Positions 43,210 to 52,242 of a stretch of DNA of 64,000 nt are shown here, in pieces. The first letter of the stretch is position 1. Every line of letters starts with the position of its first letter. The notes beneath the pieces were generated by a model. The model was given only the letters and a program-made list of their open reading frames with translations. It had not been told where the DNA came from and made no database searches. The translations under genes and the position numbers were made by a program. This DNA is from Candidatus Binatia bacterium (lineage in GTDB: Bacteria; Desulfobacterota; Binatia; UBA12015): NCBI GenBank assembly GCA_029248525.1, contig JAQWJE010000008.1, forward strand, positions 186,001 through 250,000. Direction: 5' to 3'.

Positions 43210-44270
43210 GTGATCCGTCGAACTCCTCGGATCCATCGAATGCGTCGGAGGCTCGTGGCCTTGATCCAGAGGCTGGAGTCGAGGAAGTTTCATTCGAGTC
43301 CTCACTGAGGCCGGAGAGACTGGTCGATTATATCGGCCAGGACCCCGTCTGCGAGCGACTCGGCGTCGCCATCGAGGCCGCTCGGGGCCGCGGCGAACCG
43401 TTGGACCATATCCTGCTTTCGGGTCCACCGGGCCTGGGCAAGACCTCACTGGCGCAAATCGTTGCTCGAGAGATGGGGGTTTCGTGTCGTCGAACGCAGG
43501 GGCCGGCTATCGAACGCGGTGGCGATCTCGCGGCACTCCTGTCTGACCTGCAGGCGGGGGATGTTCTCTTCATTGACGAGATCCATGGTTTGCCTCGAAA
43601 GGTGGAGGAGATCCTCTACCCGGCAATGGAGGATTTCGAACTGGATCTGATCGTGGGGCAGGGGCCTGCGGCGCGCAGCATGCGGCTTGCTCTGCAGCCA
43701 TTTACGCTCGTGGGCGCAACCACGCGGGCAGGGATGTTGAACGCTCCGCTGAGGGATCGCTTCGGCTCCGGCTTCCGTCTCGAGTTCTACGATACCGAAT
43801 CTCTCGCGCGCATCGTCAAGCGTTCAGCCGCAATTTTGCAACTAGAGTTGGCCGAGGACGCGGCACGTGAGGTCGCACGCCGTTCCCGAGGGACACCCCG
43901 GATTGCCAACCGCCATTTAAAATGGGTCCGGGACTTTTCGCAAGTTCATCACCCCGGGGAACCCGTTACGAAGTCGATTGCCGGCGACGCTCTTTCGCTG
44001 CACCAAGTGGATGCGGCCGGTCTGGATACCATGGACCACGCCATTCTCCGCGCAATCGTCGAACGCTTCGAGGGAGGGCCCGTGGGCGTCGAGAGCCTGG
44101 CGGCAATGCTCGCGGAAGCCCGCGAGACAATCGAGTACGTATACGAGCCCTACCTGGTGCAGTCCGGCTATCTGGCGCGAACGCCACGGGGGCGTGTGGC
44201 GACCGAGCAGACCTGGGCCCTGGTGGCGCCGGGCCGTCGTCCACCCAAACCGGAAGGGGCTCTCTTTTGA
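43206..44270 (+). CDS. ruvB: Holliday junction DNA helicase motor RuvB
   Basis: A 354-residue AAA+ motor. Walker [14 protein letters not shown], Walker [10 protein letters not shown], sensor 1 LVGATTRAG, arginine finger in PLRDRFGSG, and C-terminal winged helix (RTPRGRVAT). It has a short Asn/Ser/Asp-rich N-terminal extension. The last codons contain the TTG start of the histidine kinase, so kinase translation is coupled to ruvB. Confidence 0.96.
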
Positions 44271-46519
44271 CACCGGATCCCGACGGGGGTGATGGGGGCG
44301 GCCGTCCCTGGCGCAAGCGCGAAGCCACGTTGCTCGTGGCGGCGCTTCTCGCAGCGTTCTTTGCCCTGATCTACGAGACCCGTCTACCACCCTTCACCTC
44401 GAGCCAGACACTATCGCAGAATGTTGTTTTCTTCCTGCTGATCAATCTGAATATTGCGTTGATCCTGCTGGTGATATTTCTGCTGGGGCGGAATATCGTC
44501 AAGCTCGTCGTCGAGCGTCGCCAACGAGTCCTCGGTTCACACCTCCGCACGAGAATCGTGTTGAGCTTCGTGACGGTCGCGATCGCGCCGGCCATTCTTC
44601 TTTTCATCGTGGCTCTCGGATTTATTCGTAGTTCGATCGAGAGCTGGTTTTCGGTTCAGGTCGAGAGTGCCCTCGAAGCCTCGATCGATATGGCGGACAC
44701 CTATTACCGGGAGTCGATGGCGACGTCGGTTCACGAAGCACGTTGGATTGCCAGTGATCTGCAGGAGAGCGGGGGCATGGATTCCGTAACGTCGGATTGG
44801 CTCTCGGAGCGCGAAAGCGAAGTGCAGGCCGCATCGATTCGGATCTACAAGTCCGACGGCGACCTCTTCAACAAAGCGCAGACAGCAGGTCTCTCCGCTT
44901 CTCTGGCGGTGCCGCCCGACGGGATCTTCATCACAAATGCCCTTGGCGGCGTGGAGTCGACCGAAGTGGTCGAGCAAGGGGGTGCGACAGTATTGCGCGC
45001 CGCTGCTGATTTTCGCGATGCCGAGGGGATCGTTGCGGGTCTGGTTGTCGTGGATACGATCTTGCCTCGCAGCGTCGTGCGCCGGCGCGCGGAGATCGAG
45101 CAGAGTTATCGGCAGTACAAGCAATTGAGCCTGATGCGCCGGCCATTGGTGAATAACTATATTCTCACTCTGGTTCTGGTTTCGCTGGTGGTCGTTTTCG
45201 GAGGTACCTGGCTCGGCTTCGCCATCGCTCGCAGCATCACCGGACCCATCCAACGTCTGGCGGCCGGGACGCAGCGGGTCGCCGAGGGGCATCTGGATGC
45301 GAGCATCGAGATGGAATCGGGTACCGACGAGATTGCGACATTGGTCGGGTCATTTAATCAGATGACCGCAAATTTACGGGGAACCCACTCGGCACTCGCG
45401 GAACGCCGGCGCGCCCTCGAGACGATTCTCGGCAATATTACGGGGGGCGTCGTTTCGATCGACCGGCAGGCCCGGATCGAGACCGTGAACGAAGCGGCCC
45501 GCGTGATGTTGGGCATCGGCGAGGAAGCTGTCGGCATGCCGTTTCGCGAATGGTTTGCCAGCCCTCGGTTTGGCGCTGTGCGAGAGATTCTTTCGGAACT
45601 GGACAAGCGCTCGCAGAAGGGGGAATGGGACAAACTTCCGCCGCAGCGCCTTTCCATCGAGCACGATGGGGGAGCGGTTCAGGTGATCGCCACCGGTGTG
45701 GTCCTCAAGTCCGAGGAGGACGAATCGATTGGCGCTTTGCTGTTTTTCGAGGATGTAACCGAAATTCTCAAAGCGCAGCGAATGGAGGCCTGGCGCGAAG
45801 TCGCGCGCCGGATCGCTCACGAAATCAAAAACCCCCTGACGCCGATACAACTGTCCGCGCAGCGATTGCGGAAGCGCTATGGTGCCGAATTGAATAGCTC
45901 GGTTTTCGACGAGTGTACCCGCACGATCATCGACGAGGTCGGCGTGCTGAAGAATCTGGTGAGCGAGTTTTCCAATTTCGCGCGGATGCCGGCCGGACCC
46001 CATTTGCCAACGGACCTGGGACAATTGCTGGAGGATTCATTAGTTTTATTCCGTGAGGGGCACCGTCGAGTTCAATTCCATCTGGCGGTCGAGGAGAACC
46101 TTCCGTCTCTGGACCTCGATCGCGACGGTATCCGTCGCGTGATCACGAATATCGTGGACAATGCGGTCGCGGCCTTGCCTCTGGCAGCGGCACCGGTCGG
46201 CGAAGCTCCAGTTGCTCCCGAAAGCTTCGCCGAGGGGAATGTCTGGCTTTCGGCAAGGCTCGACGTGGCTCAGGAAGAGGTGCGCATCGAAATCGCAGAC
46301 GATGGTATGGGGATGACTCAAGAGGTGAAGGCCCGCCTTTTCGAGCCTTATTTCTCTACAAAGGCTCAGGGTACGGGCTTGGGGCTCGCCATTGTCCAGA
46401 CGGTTTTGGCAGACCATCGGGCGTATATCCGTGTCCGAGATAACCAACCGTGCGGCAGTCGATTTGTGATCGAGATGCCGGTGCGTTCGGCTGCGGGAAG
46501 CCCGGTTGTCGAATCTTGA
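44267..46519 (+). CDS. ntrY: NtrY-type membrane sensor histidine kinase
   Basis: A 750-residue kinase. Residues 15-125 have three membrane segments with a short loop ([57 protein letters not shown]), then a periplasmic domain to about 290, a fourth segment, HAMP (about 310-365), PAS (about 380-500), the H-box [20 protein letters not shown] (His at about 516) and an ATPase domain with [11 protein letters not shown] and GTGLGLAI. This is the NtrY layout. NtrY normally phosphorylates NtrX, a sigma-54 activator. Here the next gene has an NtrX-like receiver joined to LpxC. TTG 44267 overlaps the ruvB stop; no ATG lies near. Confidence 0.9.
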
Positions 46520-46564
46520 TGGTTTCGGGAAATTTCATGCGAGGTCAGGTAAGAGGAAACTGCC

Positions 46565-47812
46565 ATGGGTAAAAAGATTCTGGTCGTTGATGATGAAGAA
46601 AAGATCCGTTTGAGTCTCCGCGGAGTCCTGTCGGATGAAGGATATGCCGTTGTCGAGGCCGGCGATGGTCGCCGAGCCCTCGAGTTGCTGGATGCTGATA
46701 TGCCCGATCTGGTAATCCTTGACGTTTGGCTTCCGGAGGTTGATGGATTGACCCTGCTGGAAACTGTGAAGGGTGACCACCCGGACCTGCCGGTCATTAT
46801 CATCTGCGGCCATGCGAATATTGAAGCGGCCGTGCGCGCGACACGCCTGGGCGCCGCTGATTTCATTGAAAAGCCGTTCTCCATCGATGCACTTCTCGCA
46901 TCGATTACCCGCGCGCTTGGGGAACCGACCGGCCAGGCTGCGACCGGGCCGGAGTGGGGGGGGGCCGTCGTCTCGCACGATGCGGAGTTGGTTCTGCCTC
47001 AGAAGACCATCGCGCGCAGCGTGACGGCCTCGGGGGTCGGACTCCATACGGGGATGCGGACAGGTGTGATCCTGCATCCGGTGGCGGCAGGCAGCGGCAT
47101 TCTCTTCCAGAGTATGGCAAGCGAGAAATCCGTGCCTGCCCACGTCGATTTTGCCGACTCGACGGGTTATGCAACGACTCTTTTTCGGAGCGGGTTTGGC
47201 GCCAAGACCGTCGAGCATCTTTTGGCGGCTTTGCAGAGCTATGGTGTCACCAACCTGATGGTGAAAATGGAAGGAGAGGTGCCCGTCCTCGATGGTTCAG
47301 CGCTGGCCTTCTGTGATCTCCTCGAAGATGCCGGCATCGTCGAACAGGGTGGGCCCGGCGTGGAGCCTTATATCGTCAAGGAAAAACATGAAGTATCGCT
47401 CGATGGCAACACGATCGTGGTCGAACCTCATGATGGCTTGTTGGTGGACTATACCCTCGACTACCCGGACCCCGTCGGTGTGCAGCATTATGTCTATGAA
47501 TTCGACGGAGCAGAGTCCTTCAAGGCCGAGATCGCACCTGCCCGGACGTTCGGGTTTGTGAATGAGTTCAGCAAATTGGTCGAGCACGGATTGGCCTATG
47601 GCGGCCGACTGGATAACTGTGTGTTGATCGGCGAAGACGGCGTCATCAACGGAGAACTTCGTTTCCCGGACGAGTTCGTGCGTCACAAGATTCTGGATGT
47701 GATCGGAGACTTTTCCCTGCTGGGGCAACCTCTGCGCGGGAAGATTACCGCGCGTGCGACAGGGCATCGTCATAACGTTGCGATGGTGCGCGAACTGCTG
47801 CAGGCGGCCTGA
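46565..47812 (+). CDS. lpxC: Fusion of NtrX-type receiver domain and LpxC deacetylase
   Basis: One 415-residue frame. Residues 1-118 are a receiver: acidic pocket D9/D10, phospho-acceptor D53 (VILDVWLP), K103 in IEKPF; the stretch GHANIEAAVRATRLGAADF is NtrX-like. The switch Ser/Thr is Cys81. Residues about 119-145 are a linker. Residues 146-415 are LpxC, which deacetylates UDP-3-O-acyl-GlcNAc, the committed lipid A step. All key residues are present: E217 and H218 (TVEHLLAAL), H374 and D378 (RHKILDVIGDF), and H401. GLHTG and DGSA are also kept. AAGAGGAAACTGCC precedes the ATG, 45 bases after ntrY. The AAA+ and DNA-binding domains of NtrX are absent. Confidence 0.92.
   Translation: MGKKILVVDDEEKIRLSLRGVLSDEGYAVVEAGDGRRALELLDADMPDLVILDVWLPEVDGLTLLETVKGDHPDLPVIIICGHANIEAAVRATRLGAADFIEKPFSIDALLASITRALGEPTGQAATGPEWGGAVVSHDAELVLPQKTIARSVTASGVGLHTGMRTGVILHPVAAGSGILFQSMASEKSVPAHVDFADSTGYATTLFRSGFGAKTVEHLLAALQSYGVTNLMVKMEGEVPVLDGSALAFCDLLEDAGIVEQGGPGVEPYIVKEKHEVSLDGNTIVVEPHDGLLVDYTLDYPDPVGVQHYVYEFDGAESFKAEIAPARTFGFVNEFSKLVEHGLAYGGRLDNCVLIGEDGVINGELRFPDEFVRHKILDVIGDFSLLGQPLRGKITARATGHRHNVAMVRELLQAA
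46956..46964 (+). repeat. G9 homopolymer in the receiver-LpxC linker
   Basis: Nine consecutive G lie within the linker codons (TGG GGG GGG GCC) between receiver and LpxC. One extra or missing base would end the frame before the LpxC catalytic residues (a shifted frame stops within 25 to 120 codons). It may be a slipping site, or a place where sequencing errors are likely. A G8 run also occurs in cobA-hemD at 868-875. Confidence 0.9.
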
Positions 47813-47846
47813 GTCGGGCCTCCTTTCGAGTTGAATCCGCGCCTCG

Positions 47847-48740
47847 TTACTGAATCCGCGGGTTCCCCAGTGTTCCCCTGATATCATAGAAGGTCTCGCC
47901 GTTTTTTCGTTTCGGCAGGAGTCTCGGGAGAACACGCAATCCGGAGGGTGCATCCGGATCGATGGTGAGTTCAAATCGGAGGTCGAGCATGCTCCGCTTC
48001 CAGGAGCGGTTGAGCTTTATCTTTCCGGTTGCGCGGATCGATACCTCGTTCCCGCTTGCCACGAAGTTGCGCACCTGGAGCGTGTCGCCCGCCGCCTCGA
48101 CGGATAGATCCAGAGTTTCGAACGTGAGGTCCGGTACCTTGAATCCGCGCGCCATCAGGTCGCGGAGCGCGAGGTCTCGGACGGCCAGGATCAAGGTTCC
48201 ATCGACGGTGCGCCCCTGGTCGGTTCCTTCAGCGTCAAGTTCAAGCGCGGCCGAACCATAAATCTTTCCGTTTGCCGGCAAGAGCCCACGGGTGCCATCC
48301 TCGAGGTTCAGGCCGGAGCCGGCCGCCGTGATCGCAAAATCATCGGGGTCGCCCGCTAACCGGGCCGCGAGTTCCCCGCCCCAGATATCCAGTTCCAGAT
48401 CAAGCGCATTGCGTCGCCCGGGCACGAGCAGGCTGATGATTGAGGGCGTCGCCTGAAGTCCGGCGACTCGGAGTTCAAAGGCTTCATCACGATCGGGTAC
48501 GACCCGCAAATCCTCGACGTGGTAGCCGAAAAGGGGTCGGAACTGGAGCGTCCTGAAGTCTACCGTCGTGTCGGACCCGGCGGTCGCGCGGTCGAGGCTC
48601 TGACGGATCAGTGTTTCATGAGGGAAGGTGACGATGATTGCGACCAGGAAAACGCAAACCGTAAAGCCTGTGTAGAGGAGTGGCAGACGTCTCTGCCTGG
48701 CACGACTCTGCAGGGACTTCAGGAGAGAACCGACAGTCAT
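47847..48740 (-). CDS. gspN: Type II secretion protein GspN
   Basis: A 297-residue inner-membrane protein: one N-terminal membrane segment (TGFTVCVFLVAIIVTFP), then a beta-rich periplasmic domain with repeated layout such as FELRVAGLQATPSIISLL and DLELDIWGGELAARL, as in GspN. The C-terminal LLPKRKNGETFYDIRGTLGNP is the family tail. The exact role in the T2SS is unclear. It is the last gene of the gsp operon and overlaps gspM by four bases. Confidence 0.85.
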   Translation of the reverse strand: MTVGSLLKSLQSRARQRRLPLLYTGFTVCVFLVAIIVTFPHETLIRQSLDRATAGSDTTVDFRTLQFRPLFGYHVEDLRVVPDRDEAFELRVAGLQATPSIISLLVPGRRNALDLELDIWGGELAARLAGDPDDFAITAAGSGLNLEDGTRGLLPANGKIYGSAALELDAEGTDQGRTVDGTLILAVRDLALRDLMARGFKVPDLTFETLDLSVEAAGDTLQVRNFVASGNEVSIRATGKIKLNRSWKRSMLDLRFELTIDPDAPSGLRVLPRLLPKRKNGETFYDIRGTLGNPRIQ

Positions 48741-49303
48741 CGTGGCTGCAGTCGTACGACAATAATCGTCGCGTCCAATAGCGTGGGGTCCTTATATTGG
48801 CGTTTGAAGCTCGTGCGAGCCACCGTCATGCCGCCGCCACGAACCTCGATTGCGTGCAGCAGGCGAACCAATCGTTGCGCGGAGATCCCGGATAGCTTCA
48901 TATCCACAGATTCTTCGCGAAAGTCTGCGTCGACTTCTCGGGTTGTGGGATTCATCGCAGTGATCTGTTCGCGCCCGACCACAGGAACGCTCACGGATTC
49001 CAGCTGGGAAAAAAGCGATCCGCGGTTTCCGCGGCCGGCTTTCTTCTGCAGTCTGGAGACCTTTTTCTCGAGGGTCTTGTAGCGGCTGGTCAATTCCTCG
49101 AGAGCGAGGCTGTCTCGTTGGGCGATCTTCAGATCACGATCCAGTCGCACAATCGAATTGGTCACGGGTTCATAGACGCCGAGCCAGAGGAGAAGAAAGA
49201 GACTCAGCGCACTCGCGCCGTAGAGAAGGTAGCGCTCGCGAGGTACGAGCCGATCGTGCCAGTCGCGCAGCTGGTCGAGATAGGGGCCGAGGCGCTCGCG
49301 CAT
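48737..49303 (-). CDS. gspM: Type II secretion protein GspM
   Basis: A 188-residue inner-membrane protein: short cytoplasmic N-terminus, one membrane segment (YLLYGASALSLFLLLWLGVYEP), a coiled stretch rich in Leu/Arg/Lys (LDRDLKIAQRDSLALEELTSRYKTLEKK), then a ferredoxin-like periplasmic domain. It pairs with GspL. It overlaps gspL by one base and gspN by four. Confidence 0.85.
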   Translation of the reverse strand: MRERLGPYLDQLRDWHDRLVPRERYLLYGASALSLFLLLWLGVYEPVTNSIVRLDRDLKIAQRDSLALEELTSRYKTLEKKVSRLQKKAGRGNRGSLFSQLESVSVPVVGREQITAMNPTTREVDADFREESVDMKLSGISAQRLVRLLHAIEVRGGGMTVARTSFKRQYKDPTLLDATIIVVRLQPR

Positions 49304-50664
49304 CAGGATGCTCCCTCGGTCTCGAGGGTCGCTCGAAATTCGATCCGTCCATCGACGCCGGCCTTCACGTCCTGGACATTGGCCGCTGTGAATTCGGGCA
49401 ACGAGCCCAGCGCGCTCGAGACAATATCGACAGACTCAAAAGTGTCGGTTCGTCCGCGGAATCGTACTCCGGTGGAATCGAGGGTCAGGTCGGCAACTTC
49501 GAGAGGGACCTCGGCGGGAATTGCGGCATGGATTGCGAGCAACTGGTCGAGCGTCGGAGCGCCCGCATTTCCGCCGCCCAGGAGGGCGCTTTTTTTCTCG
49601 AGTTGATCGAGTGCCGCTCGGACCCGACGTACTTCGGTGCCACGAGGGGCCTTTGGTGCGATGGTTCTTGTTTGACTATCGATCCGGGCGCGCAGCTGGT
49701 CGAGTTCGGCACTCCGCTCGGCGAACATCAGTACCCAGGTGCCGAGAACAATCACGGCCGCTGCTGCCGCAATCCAGCCAGTCCTGCGGAGTTGGCGATG
49801 CGCTTCCTCGCTCGGTGCGTGGTAAGCAAAGGCGCCGCTGCGGAAGTTGAGCCACTGCTGGGTCGGCTGGGTGGCCGCTCGCGCGAGAGCCGCCGCCCGC
49901 AGGGCCTCGTCCGGAACGTTGCGCAGCCATTCGGGCCCCTCGTCGCGTAGCGAATTTCGAGGGGGCGTCTCGGGCAGCACGACCTCCTGGGCCAGCCCGG
50001 GGTCGCCGGTGACGATGATTTGCGCGGGGAGTTCATTTCCGTAGGCTGCGGCGGCCCATCGGACCTCTTCGAGGATAGCCGCGGGTTCCTCGCTGCCGAT
50101 CCCGTGGAGTTTCGCGATCTGGCCGTTCTCGGAGAAAGCCAGACCGCCATCGTCGCGCAGGTCCACCAGGAGTGTGGTCCGCGAGTCTTGGTTCATCAGG
50201 TCCGCGGTTGCCAGCGTTCCGAGGGTGACCAACGCCGGATCGATCCCGGAGTTTTCGAGAAACTCCAGATGAGCGGCGATATCCTCATTGCGACAAACAG
50301 CGGCCAGAACCGTGGCACTATGCGCGGCCTCGCCGAGGACTCGCCACGCCACGACGCTGGTTTCTATATCCAGCGGGACTTCTGACTCGAGTTCAAAGGG
50401 GATTGTGGCTTGAAGCTTTGAGGTTTCCTTGAAGGGTAGGTGCAATATGCGATGGCTGACCATCGCGGCTGGTAGCGTCGTGGCGATCGCATCCGGCGTC
50501 GCCGGGCATTCCCGGGCGAGGCTTTGCCTGAGTTCGTCGGCCGCTACCGTTTCGGCAGCAAATTCGACCGTCCACGATTTGCGGAACTCGACGGTTTTTC
50601 CCGAGCGGGCAAGCAGCGCACAGACGGCGCCCTCCGCTCCCATATCGATGCCAAGAGTAATCAC
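49303..50664 (-). CDS. gspL: Type II secretion protein GspL (PilM/actin-like cytoplasmic domain)
   Basis: A 453-residue bitopic protein. The cytoplasmic part (about 1-270) has an actin-like/PilM start ITLGIDMGAEGAVCALL and LLVDLRDDGGLAFSENG. One membrane segment follows (WIAAAAAVIVLGTWVLMFAE), then a coiled stretch and a ferredoxin-like periplasmic domain. It ties the secretion ATPase to the inner-membrane platform. Start GTG 50664. A 37-base gap separates it from gspK. Confidence 0.88.
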   Translation of the reverse strand: MITLGIDMGAEGAVCALLARSGKTVEFRKSWTVEFAAETVAADELRQSLARECPATPDAIATTLPAAMVSHRILHLPFKETSKLQATIPFELESEVPLDIETSVVAWRVLGEAAHSATVLAAVCRNEDIAAHLEFLENSGIDPALVTLGTLATADLMNQDSRTTLLVDLRDDGGLAFSENGQIAKLHGIGSEEPAAILEEVRWAAAAYGNELPAQIIVTGDPGLAQEVVLPETPPRNSLRDEGPEWLRNVPDEALRAAALARAATQPTQQWLNFRSGAFAYHAPSEEAHRQLRRTGWIAAAAAVIVLGTWVLMFAERSAELDQLRARIDSQTRTIAPKAPRGTEVRRVRAALDQLEKKSALLGGGNAGAPTLDQLLAIHAAIPAEVPLEVADLTLDSTGVRFRGRTDTFESVDIVSSALGSLPEFTAANVQDVKAGVDGRIEFRATLETEGAS

Positions 50665-50701
50665 TGTTTAAAACGTACCGGATTCCGCGCAAAGTCCCAA
50701 T

Positions 50702-51604
50702 TCATCGACTTCGCTCCGACCAATAGAGCCTTTCGAGACGGTCTCCTTGTCTTCGGGCGACCGTTTCCAGACTCTCGATCGTCGAACCGACGCGGCCTGT
50801 GGCAAAAAGCCGAAAATACTCGCTGCGCTGGCCGTATTTAATGGGAATTCCATCCTTCCGGTTCTCGGCAGGGCAGAGATCATCGAGCGGAAGATCCTTT
50901 CCGAACCCTTGCAAGGGCATGGGATAATTTTCATCGACTTCGCAACCCGCAGCGGCAAGTACCCGGGCACTTGCGGTGTCGGCATTGATACCCTGATGGC
51001 CGTCTCGTCCGTCGCTACGCCGATAGGCGGTCAGAAAGGGGCGCAGGCTGTCGATCGTCTTTTCGTCGAAGCCCTGAATCAGGCGAAGTTCCTCGAGGCT
51101 GCGCAAGGGCCCGCCATGCGGCTGGCACGGAAATGGAAGCGCGCACGTGCCTGCCGCGAGACTCGCTTCGCCGGGCCCCGCGTCGGCATCCACCCAGACA
51201 GCGACGCTGTCGAGAAGAGCCACATCGAGTTCGAGGCTTTCAAACAGCTTCTCGAGAGCTCTTCGGTGGGGGCGATCCGCGATCTGGTTGAGGTTCAATT
51301 TGCCTTCCTCGTCCTCCACGCGGATCGAGACGTCGCCGGCGCCGAGCGGGAGAACCACCAGCGAGAGCGGTAAAAGCGAAAGGCGCGTTGTGGGCTCCCT
51401 GGTGCGAAGCATCTGGCCGAGGTAGGCGCTTCCACCTTCTTCGGCGGCCCGAGCCAGCAGCCTTGCCGCAGAGGAGTCTCCGGCGTTGCGTGCCAGGTGA
51501 CTATGCAGCATGGCTGCATCGGTGGCTTCGAGGACGATCAAGGTCAGAAGGGCCACGGAAAGCAGCGCCGAGACGAGAGCGATCCCGCGTTCATTACTCT
51601 TCAT
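50702..51604 (-). CDS. gspK: Type II secretion minor pseudopilin GspK
   Basis: A 300-residue large minor pseudopilin. The N-terminal region ERGIALVSALLSVALLTLIV is cut by prepilin peptidase after the first Gly; like other GspK it lacks Glu5. The domain includes EDEEGKLNLNQIADRP and LRSLEELRLIQGFDEKTI, family landmarks. It caps the pseudopilus with GspI and GspJ. It overlaps gspJ by four bases. Confidence 0.9.
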   Translation of the reverse strand: MKSNERGIALVSALLSVALLTLIVLEATDAAMLHSHLARNAGDSSAARLLARAAEEGGSAYLGQMLRTREPTTRLSLLPLSLVVLPLGAGDVSIRVEDEEGKLNLNQIADRPHRRALEKLFESLELDVALLDSVAVWVDADAGPGEASLAAGTCALPFPCQPHGGPLRSLEELRLIQGFDEKTIDSLRPFLTAYRRSDGRDGHQGINADTASARVLAAAGCEVDENYPMPLQGFGKDLPLDDLCPAENRKDGIPIKYGQRSEYFRLFATGRVGSTIESLETVARRQGDRLERLYWSERSR

Positions 51605-52242
51605 CGGCGAGGCCCCATCGGCAATCGCACGGTCAGTCGGTAGGGTTCGGGGCTGCCGTTGGTTTCATCCAGCGTGAGGGTCAGGCGCACCGCGCGCGGG
51701 AGCGGGCTGCGGGTCCCCTCCGCACTCCATGTGCGCGTCCATTCGCTGGATCGGCCAGGGAGCACCTCGACCCGGAATCCCCGGACTCCTTCCAGGATTA
51801 CAGCTGATACCGGCTCCACACCTTCGGCGGCGACAGAGGGCAATTGTTCCTTGACCAGAACTTGGCGGCCCGGCGCCCAGGGGTCGTCCTCCAATCGGTA
51901 CCGGAGGTAGGAGACAGGGTCCGTGAGGTCGCCACGCAGGCGTCTGGCTGCAGTGCTCGCGAAGCGGAACTCGCTTGAGGGCAGGTCGAAGCTGCGGTCG
52001 AGAACTGCGAAATTGCCACGCGCATCGGGTGGTGCAACGGCCCCGGTGATCTCCTCGGCGAGCCGCTCCAACGTGGTGCGCGCGGCCGCCGTCGCCTCGA
52101 TGGTCTGCTCCGCGATATCGCGTGAGGCGATTGTTTGTTGGAAGGGACCAACTTGCGCCGCAAAGATGATGCCGATGATGGCCACCGAAACCAGAAGCTC
52201 GAGCAGGGTGAAGCCTTCTTCGTGCCGCTGCAGCAAATTCAT
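51601..52242 (-). CDS. gspJ: Type II secretion minor pseudopilin GspJ
   Basis: A 213-residue minor pseudopilin with prepilin signal EEGFTLLELLVSVAIIGIIF (cleavage after Gly, Glu5 present). The globular domain has SSEFRFASTAARRLRGDLTDPVSYLRYRLE. It forms the pseudopilus tip with GspI and GspK. ATG 52242 overlaps the gspI stop. Confidence 0.9.
   Translation of the reverse strand: MNLLQRHEEGFTLLELLVSVAIIGIIFAAQVGPFQQTIASRDIAEQTIEATAAARTTLERLAEEITGAVAPPDARGNFAVLDRSFDLPSSEFRFASTAARRLRGDLTDPVSYLRYRLEDDPWAPGRQVLVKEQLPSVAAEGVEPVSAVILEGVRGFRVEVLPGRSSEWTRTWSAEGTRSPLPRAVRLTLTLDETNGSPEPYRLTVRLPMGPRR

Follow-up and report, generated by a model that had tools for sequence, protein, structure and literature searches.

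An NtrX-type receiver joined to LpxC beside an NtrY-type kinase: a candidate route from signal to lipid A synthesis

LpxC catalyses the committed and tightly balanced step of lipid A synthesis, provides the outer membrane with its lipid A anchor and is a target for antibiotics. In the DNA analysed here, a 64,000-nucleotide stretch from a Candidatus Binatia bacterium (the window), the LpxC enzyme is preceded, in the same reading frame, by a response-regulator receiver domain, and the locus thus raises the question of where this receiver came from and what it does on an enzyme of envelope synthesis. The sequence-only reading that drew attention to the gene knew of no characterised example. Likewise, no description of a REC-LpxC fusion was found in the open-access literature; domain-architecture databases may list the pair without comment.

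The fusion gene and its domains

The fusion gene (46565..47812, + strand) is, as had been claimed, a single open frame that runs uninterrupted from the receiver into LpxC, with an ATG at 46565, a TGA ending at 47812 and a product of 415 amino acids. Residues 5-114 (46577..46906, +) match the Pfam model Response_reg (PF00072) with 105 bits, against a cut-off of 30.2, and the acidic pair D9/D10, the phospho-acceptor D53 (codon 46721-46723, +) and K103 named in the sequence-only reading are all present. Among all response-regulator models, NtrX (NF051870) scores highest, with 129.8 bits across the model's first 119 positions, followed by ntrC with 98.6 bits, and Brucella NtrX (4d6x, 5m7n) is the best solved relative of the receiver by sequence, in agreement with the NtrX-like pattern first noticed. 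Assignment of the whole protein as an NtrX was rejected; a Pfam scan of the window protein has no AAA+ and no DNA-binding (Fis-type HTH) domain, and 129.8 bits compares with a whole-protein cut-off of 600. From its sequence, the protein is best regarded as derived from NtrX yet not itself an NtrX.

The LpxC deacetylase domain (residues 146-413; 47000..47803, +) matches PF03331 over the full model (1-268 of 268) with 271.9 bits, against a cut-off of 27, and TIGR00325 (lpxC) with 234.8 bits, over the cut-off of 187.25; Foldseek places the domain on 4oze with a target TM-score of 0.95. The zinc ligands H218, H374 and D378 and the catalytic E217 and H401, as originally listed, are all in place. 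There is no long C-terminal tail on this LpxC, and nearly all relatives have 2-22 residues beyond the domain. Both domains are not found together in one solved chain among the matches listed. They are separated by a variable linker (residues 115-145, 31 residues; 46907..46999, +) with low identity and low pLDDT. At the end of strand 4, where receivers conserve a Ser/Thr, the window protein has Cys (C81; 46805-46807), a feature on which the sequence-only reading was silent. This position is Ser in 75 and Cys in 10 of 85 loci from the class Binatia; the set also contains exactly 10 loci of the family to which the window belongs. C81 could change the lifetime of the phosphate or render the switch redox-sensitive.

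AlphaFold2 models of the window protein and of a relative from the Acidobacteriota have pTM values of 0.88 and 0.90, respectively, the latter from an alignment without any sequence from the class. The linker is disordered or weak in both models, with a pLDDT below 50 at residues 124-130 and 134-138 of the window protein. By our estimate, the pTM would be roughly 0.7 for an enzyme of 270 residues whose receiver is free to take any position and, as both values are above this, a defined packing of the receiver on LpxC is predicted. The confident models thus suggest a fixed arrangement of the two domains and say nothing on an effect on activity. Mean-field DCA of receiver against LpxC (130 sequences, Neff 93) gave scattered inter-domain pairs and no clear interface.

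Receivers in RssB-type adaptors act by controlling proteolysis, and the receiver could similarly set the amount of LpxC, with phosphorylation exposing or hiding a site for a protease or an adaptor. LpxC in E. coli is under proteolytic control and, as the window LpxC has no long C-terminal tail and its genome no match to LapB, another degradation signal could be needed; the linker is also predicted to be unstructured. The high pTM suggests, however, a packed receiver rather than a mere tether, and no protease or adaptor gene adjoins the kinase and fusion genes in the window. We consider control of LpxC amount unlikely, although it is, together with membrane docking (below), one of the two main rivals to control of the enzyme itself.

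The upstream kinase and conservation across the class

Directly upstream of the fusion is a gene (44267..46519, +) that the sequence-only reading had not recognised. It encodes an NtrY-type membrane histidine kinase with NtrY_N, HAMP, PAS, HisKA and HATPase domains and, in its translation, the H-box HEIKNP. The kinase gene is preceded by ruvC-ruvA-ruvB, and its likely start is a TTG overlapping the stop codon of ruvB. Downstream, and convergent with the fusion gene, are type II secretion genes (M, L, K and J-like; 48737-52242, -). Scanning 44200-47950 for consensus promoters gave no match. The NtrY-type kinase is probably the cognate kinase of the fused receiver, and a receiver N-terminal to an intact enzyme, with the gene of a partner kinase adjacent, is the architecture of an enzyme-output response regulator.

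The genome from which the window is derived, with a completeness of 98.9%, has one lpxC, the fused one, and one NtrY_N protein, the kinase encoded upstream of it. No NtrX scores above the model cut-off in this genome (best 396 versus 600 bits), and other sigma-54-type regulators are also encoded. LpxB is present and the lipid A pathway therefore runs on, with the product of the sole lpxC as its putative deacetylase. A second, normal lpxC doing the job, named at the outset as an observation that would refute the proposal, was ruled out for this genome and, apart from one doubtful case, for the class.

Homologues of lpxC were found in 140 of 148 genomes of the class, in single copy in 139 of the 140, and every locus long enough to tell encodes REC-LpxC, bar the doubtful second copy of G129. 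This unfused lpxC lies on a 3.1 kb contig (G129:C171) of a genome in which the fusion is present too; in the LpxC tree, the unfused copy clusters with Nitrospira LpxC, and it may be contamination. In one other class member (G104:C100), an in-frame TGA interrupts the LpxC part, either through an assembly error or in a broken gene. Wherever there is enough upstream sequence (82 of 82 class loci), NtrY is directly upstream of REC-LpxC, ending no more than ~150 bases from the receiver, with the H-box kept in 81. An NtrY_N scan of 118 class genomes identified exactly one such protein in 106, and it adjoins lpxC in all 98 genomes with both genes on one contig; for the remaining 8 of the 106, no lpxC was found or the two genes are on different contigs. 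The receiver residues D9, D10, D53 and K103 and the LpxC residues E217, H218, H374, D378 and H401 are invariant wherever covered in 85 class loci and 13 loci from outside the class. Set against the window protein, identity averages 59.5% in the receiver, 55.5% in LpxC and 14.7% in the linker, whose length ranges from 29 to 47 residues within the class. By this measure, conservation of the receiver is no weaker than that of the essential enzyme.

Most of the genomes involved are metagenome assemblies and, taken with the in-frame TGA in the G104 relative, this could be seen as a sign that the fusion is an assembly artefact. The same junction recurs, however, in about 85 class loci, several of them on genomes of a single contig, and also in the isolate Desulfopila sp. 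IMCC35006, and an artefact was therefore rejected. A genuine but idle receiver would not be expected to be conserved as well as the enzyme that it precedes, with its acceptor Asp invariant. That the junction is false or the receiver idle is, in our judgement, extremely unlikely.

A single origin and a route from NtrX

Fused forms are present in many families of the window's phylum, and also in Acidobacteriota (Thermoanaerobaculia and Holophagae), in records named Nitrospirota, and in Desulfopila and Desulfoprunum. In a tree of 108 LpxC domains, one branch with an SH-aLRT of 100 splits the 79 fused from the 29 unfused sequences, a result to be read with the quick method, the long branches and the choice of unfused sequences in mind. 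Fused receivers similarly cluster together, and with NtrX-like ones, in a receiver tree with too few columns for fine branching and so used for this grouping only. One origin of fused LpxC, with later spread, is the simplest reading of these sequences. The search of relatives, proposed with the original observation, and the LpxC tree revealed an old, class-wide fusion with surviving intermediates, none of which the sequence-only reading had seen.

Outside the class, 38 of the 47 fused loci with enough upstream sequence have no adjacent kinase gene. This bears on the second of the main rivals, in which the receiver is a docking module that holds LpxC at the membrane-bound NtrY, or makes it dimerise, with phosphorylation releasing or recruiting the enzyme. 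The membrane kinase NtrY is directly upstream in all testable class loci, and a 2025 review (PMC12444477) notes that Ght has been proposed to localise LpxC in Neisseria. Most fused genes outside the class have, however, kept the phosphorylation site with no NtrY adjacent, and docking as the main role of the receiver seems to us quite improbable.

Some outside sequences, L039, L041, L042 (the Desulfopila isolate) and L046, and also L207, carry a fused LpxC that has diverged and sits on a long branch. In the genomes of the first four, a normal LpxC coexists elsewhere, and the diverged fused copy may have a different or new role. Four outside sequences, L039, L041 and L042 among them, have Leu at the His161 position. 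A few other genomes also have a normal LpxC beside the fused one.

The sequences are consistent with three stages by which NtrX became the receiver of REC-LpxC, and all three are represented in living forms. In the first, the genes are separate; the order lpxC-(DUF4390)-ntrY-ntrX, all on one strand, occurs in 9 of the 20 genomes with unfused genes that were sampled from the phylum, as well as in Acidobacteriota and others. The loci with such an unfused lpxC cluster are L235, L236, L239, L241, L242, L244-L247, L045, L048, L050, L051, L073 and L080, and its conservation makes it likely that lipid A synthesis and NtrYX are functionally linked far more widely than through the fusion. In L045/L229, a stand-alone receiver gene is directly upstream of an unfused lpxC and, in L062, this position is occupied by a gene for a dCache hybrid kinase-receiver.

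In the second stage, a whole NtrX (REC, AAA+ and an HTH remnant) precedes LpxC in proteins of 700-760 amino acids, found in L218-L228 from families f18, f20, f50, f64, f70 and f88 of the phylum; in several of these loci, NtrY is the gene immediately upstream. NtrX is the best regulator model for these REC-AAA-LpxC proteins and several match it nearly end to end; residues 1-436 of L218 align with model positions 4-451 of 452, and residues 7-457 of L223 with positions 3-452. Their receivers (101-111 bits) and LpxC domains (266-288 bits) are undecayed, whereas Sigma54_activat (AAA+) scores 41-106 bits, versus 213-252 in separate NtrX proteins, and HTH_8 at most 19.9 bits (cut-off 22), versus 30-48 in four of the five separate NtrX scanned. 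Every REC-AAA-LpxC protein lacks both GAFTGA and the Walker B Glu. As some separate NtrX have also lost GAFTGA (two of six, L045 and L080) or any HTH_8 match (L045), these losses are by themselves less telling; the Walker B Glu is kept in all six separate NtrX, and its loss is more telling. In L217 (G248:C47), the receiver and AAA-LpxC are two adjoining ORFs, resulting from a split gene or an assembly frameshift.

In the third stage, represented by the window protein, the AAA+ and HTH are both gone, and the linker is in the position that they occupy in the REC-AAA-LpxC relatives. On the LpxC tree, the AAA+ domain may have been lost once or several times. A later gain of AAA+-HTH by a REC-LpxC is conceivable in formal terms, but such an insertion would need to recreate the domain order of NtrX. 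The proposal that an NtrX output was swapped for an enzyme, made from the window protein alone, is supported by both the whole-NtrX-LpxC proteins and the unfused lpxC-ntrY-ntrX clusters. The parts that act on DNA decayed selectively, with the receiver and the enzyme left intact, and no other observation speaks as strongly for a present action of the phosphorylation signal on LpxC.

The same pattern of decay bears on a flow of information in the opposite direction, in which LpxC or its ligand would alter phosphorylation of the receiver. The fusion would then serve NtrY as a sink for phosphate or as a sensor that reports lipid A precursor, and NtrY would act on other regulators. The other sigma-54-type regulators of the genome are possibly within reach of NtrY. 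The sole lpxC has, however, kept its full active site, and it was the AAA+/HTH output that decayed in the intermediates and not LpxC. We regard such a reverse flow, with NtrY acting elsewhere, as very unlikely.

Control of LpxC and comparison with known systems

Modulation of LpxC by its phosphorylated receiver is the reading that we prefer. The NtrY-type kinase would sense an envelope or redox signal and autophosphorylate on the His of its HEIKNP box, the phosphate would pass to D53 of the LpxC-joined receiver, and the phosphorylated receiver would then modulate LpxC. Historically, lpxC and ntrYX would have been neighbours, NtrX would have become fused to LpxC, and its AAA+ ATPase and DNA-binding parts would have decayed and been lost, leaving the LpxC enzyme as the only output. 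This scheme as a whole, control by NtrY through D53 and descent from NtrX, we consider probable. What is established is the architecture, the single copy, the linkage to the kinase, the conserved phosphorylation machinery, the grouping in one clade and the existence of extant forms that correspond to each step; the signal, the phosphotransfer, the effect on LpxC and its direction we infer. The rarity of an adjacent kinase outside the class, Cys81, the lack of a DCA interface and the diverged branch with L039, L041, L042 and L046 all count against it. As to direction, loss of NtrYX in R. sphaeroides raises the lpxC transcript 8.8-fold and about doubles LPS, an effect that is transcriptional and thought to be indirect (PMC7240162). 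Because of this observation, a phosphorylated state that restrains LpxC is, by analogy with Alphaproteobacteria, in which NtrYX lowers lpxC expression, the slightly better guess.

Taken more broadly, we lean by a little towards the view that, in this class and in members of other groups, NtrY has the receiver-LpxC as its sole output, that flux into lipid A would there be controlled post-translationally, replacing proteolytic control by FtsH/LapB or transcriptional control by NtrX, and that all steps of the route are extant. The presence of the fusion beside its presumed kinase throughout the sampled class suggests that outer-membrane synthesis may be under direct signal control, and not only under control through gene expression or protein breakdown. 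REC-LpxC also offers a way to test which signal NtrY senses and how NtrYX came to affect the envelope, and its relatives form an unusually complete record, with each stage alive, of a transcription factor becoming the regulatory domain of an enzyme.

With LpxC from Aquifex, Pseudomonas and E. coli, the fused protein shares the same complete domain, zinc site and fold (Foldseek target TM-scores of up to 0.95 to solved LpxC, with 35% identity). It differs from unfused LpxC in having an N-terminal receiver and in forming a separate clade. The CheB methylesterase and the PleD diguanylate cyclase similarly have an N-terminal receiver, a C-terminal enzyme and a partner kinase, but their outputs are enzymes of adaptation and signalling, whereas here the output is the committed enzyme of an essential biosynthesis. 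No response regulator with a committed biosynthetic enzyme as output was found in the open-access literature. Regulation of LpxC, as covered in the 2025 review of lipid A regulation (PMC12444477), is by FtsH/LapB proteolysis, Lon, activation through binding of MurA, Ght, and transcription through NtrYX and ChvGI; its passages on this subject do not mention a receiver fused to LpxC. Control through a phospho-receiver within the enzyme itself would follow a principle other than proteolysis, protein partners and transcription. The NtrY-NtrX systems of Brucella, Rhodobacter and Caulobacter have the same NtrX-type receiver, an NtrY-type kinase upstream and a link to lpxC; the fused protein, in contrast, has no AAA+ or DNA-binding domain and has the LpxC enzyme as its output. 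A two-component link to lpxC is also provided by D. vulgaris DVU2934, a DNA-binding regulator with lpxC as its single mapped target (PMC3333781), but DVU2934 controls a separate lpxC via DNA, with no fusion. Enzyme-output response regulators are thus already known, and LpxC as the output is the new element.
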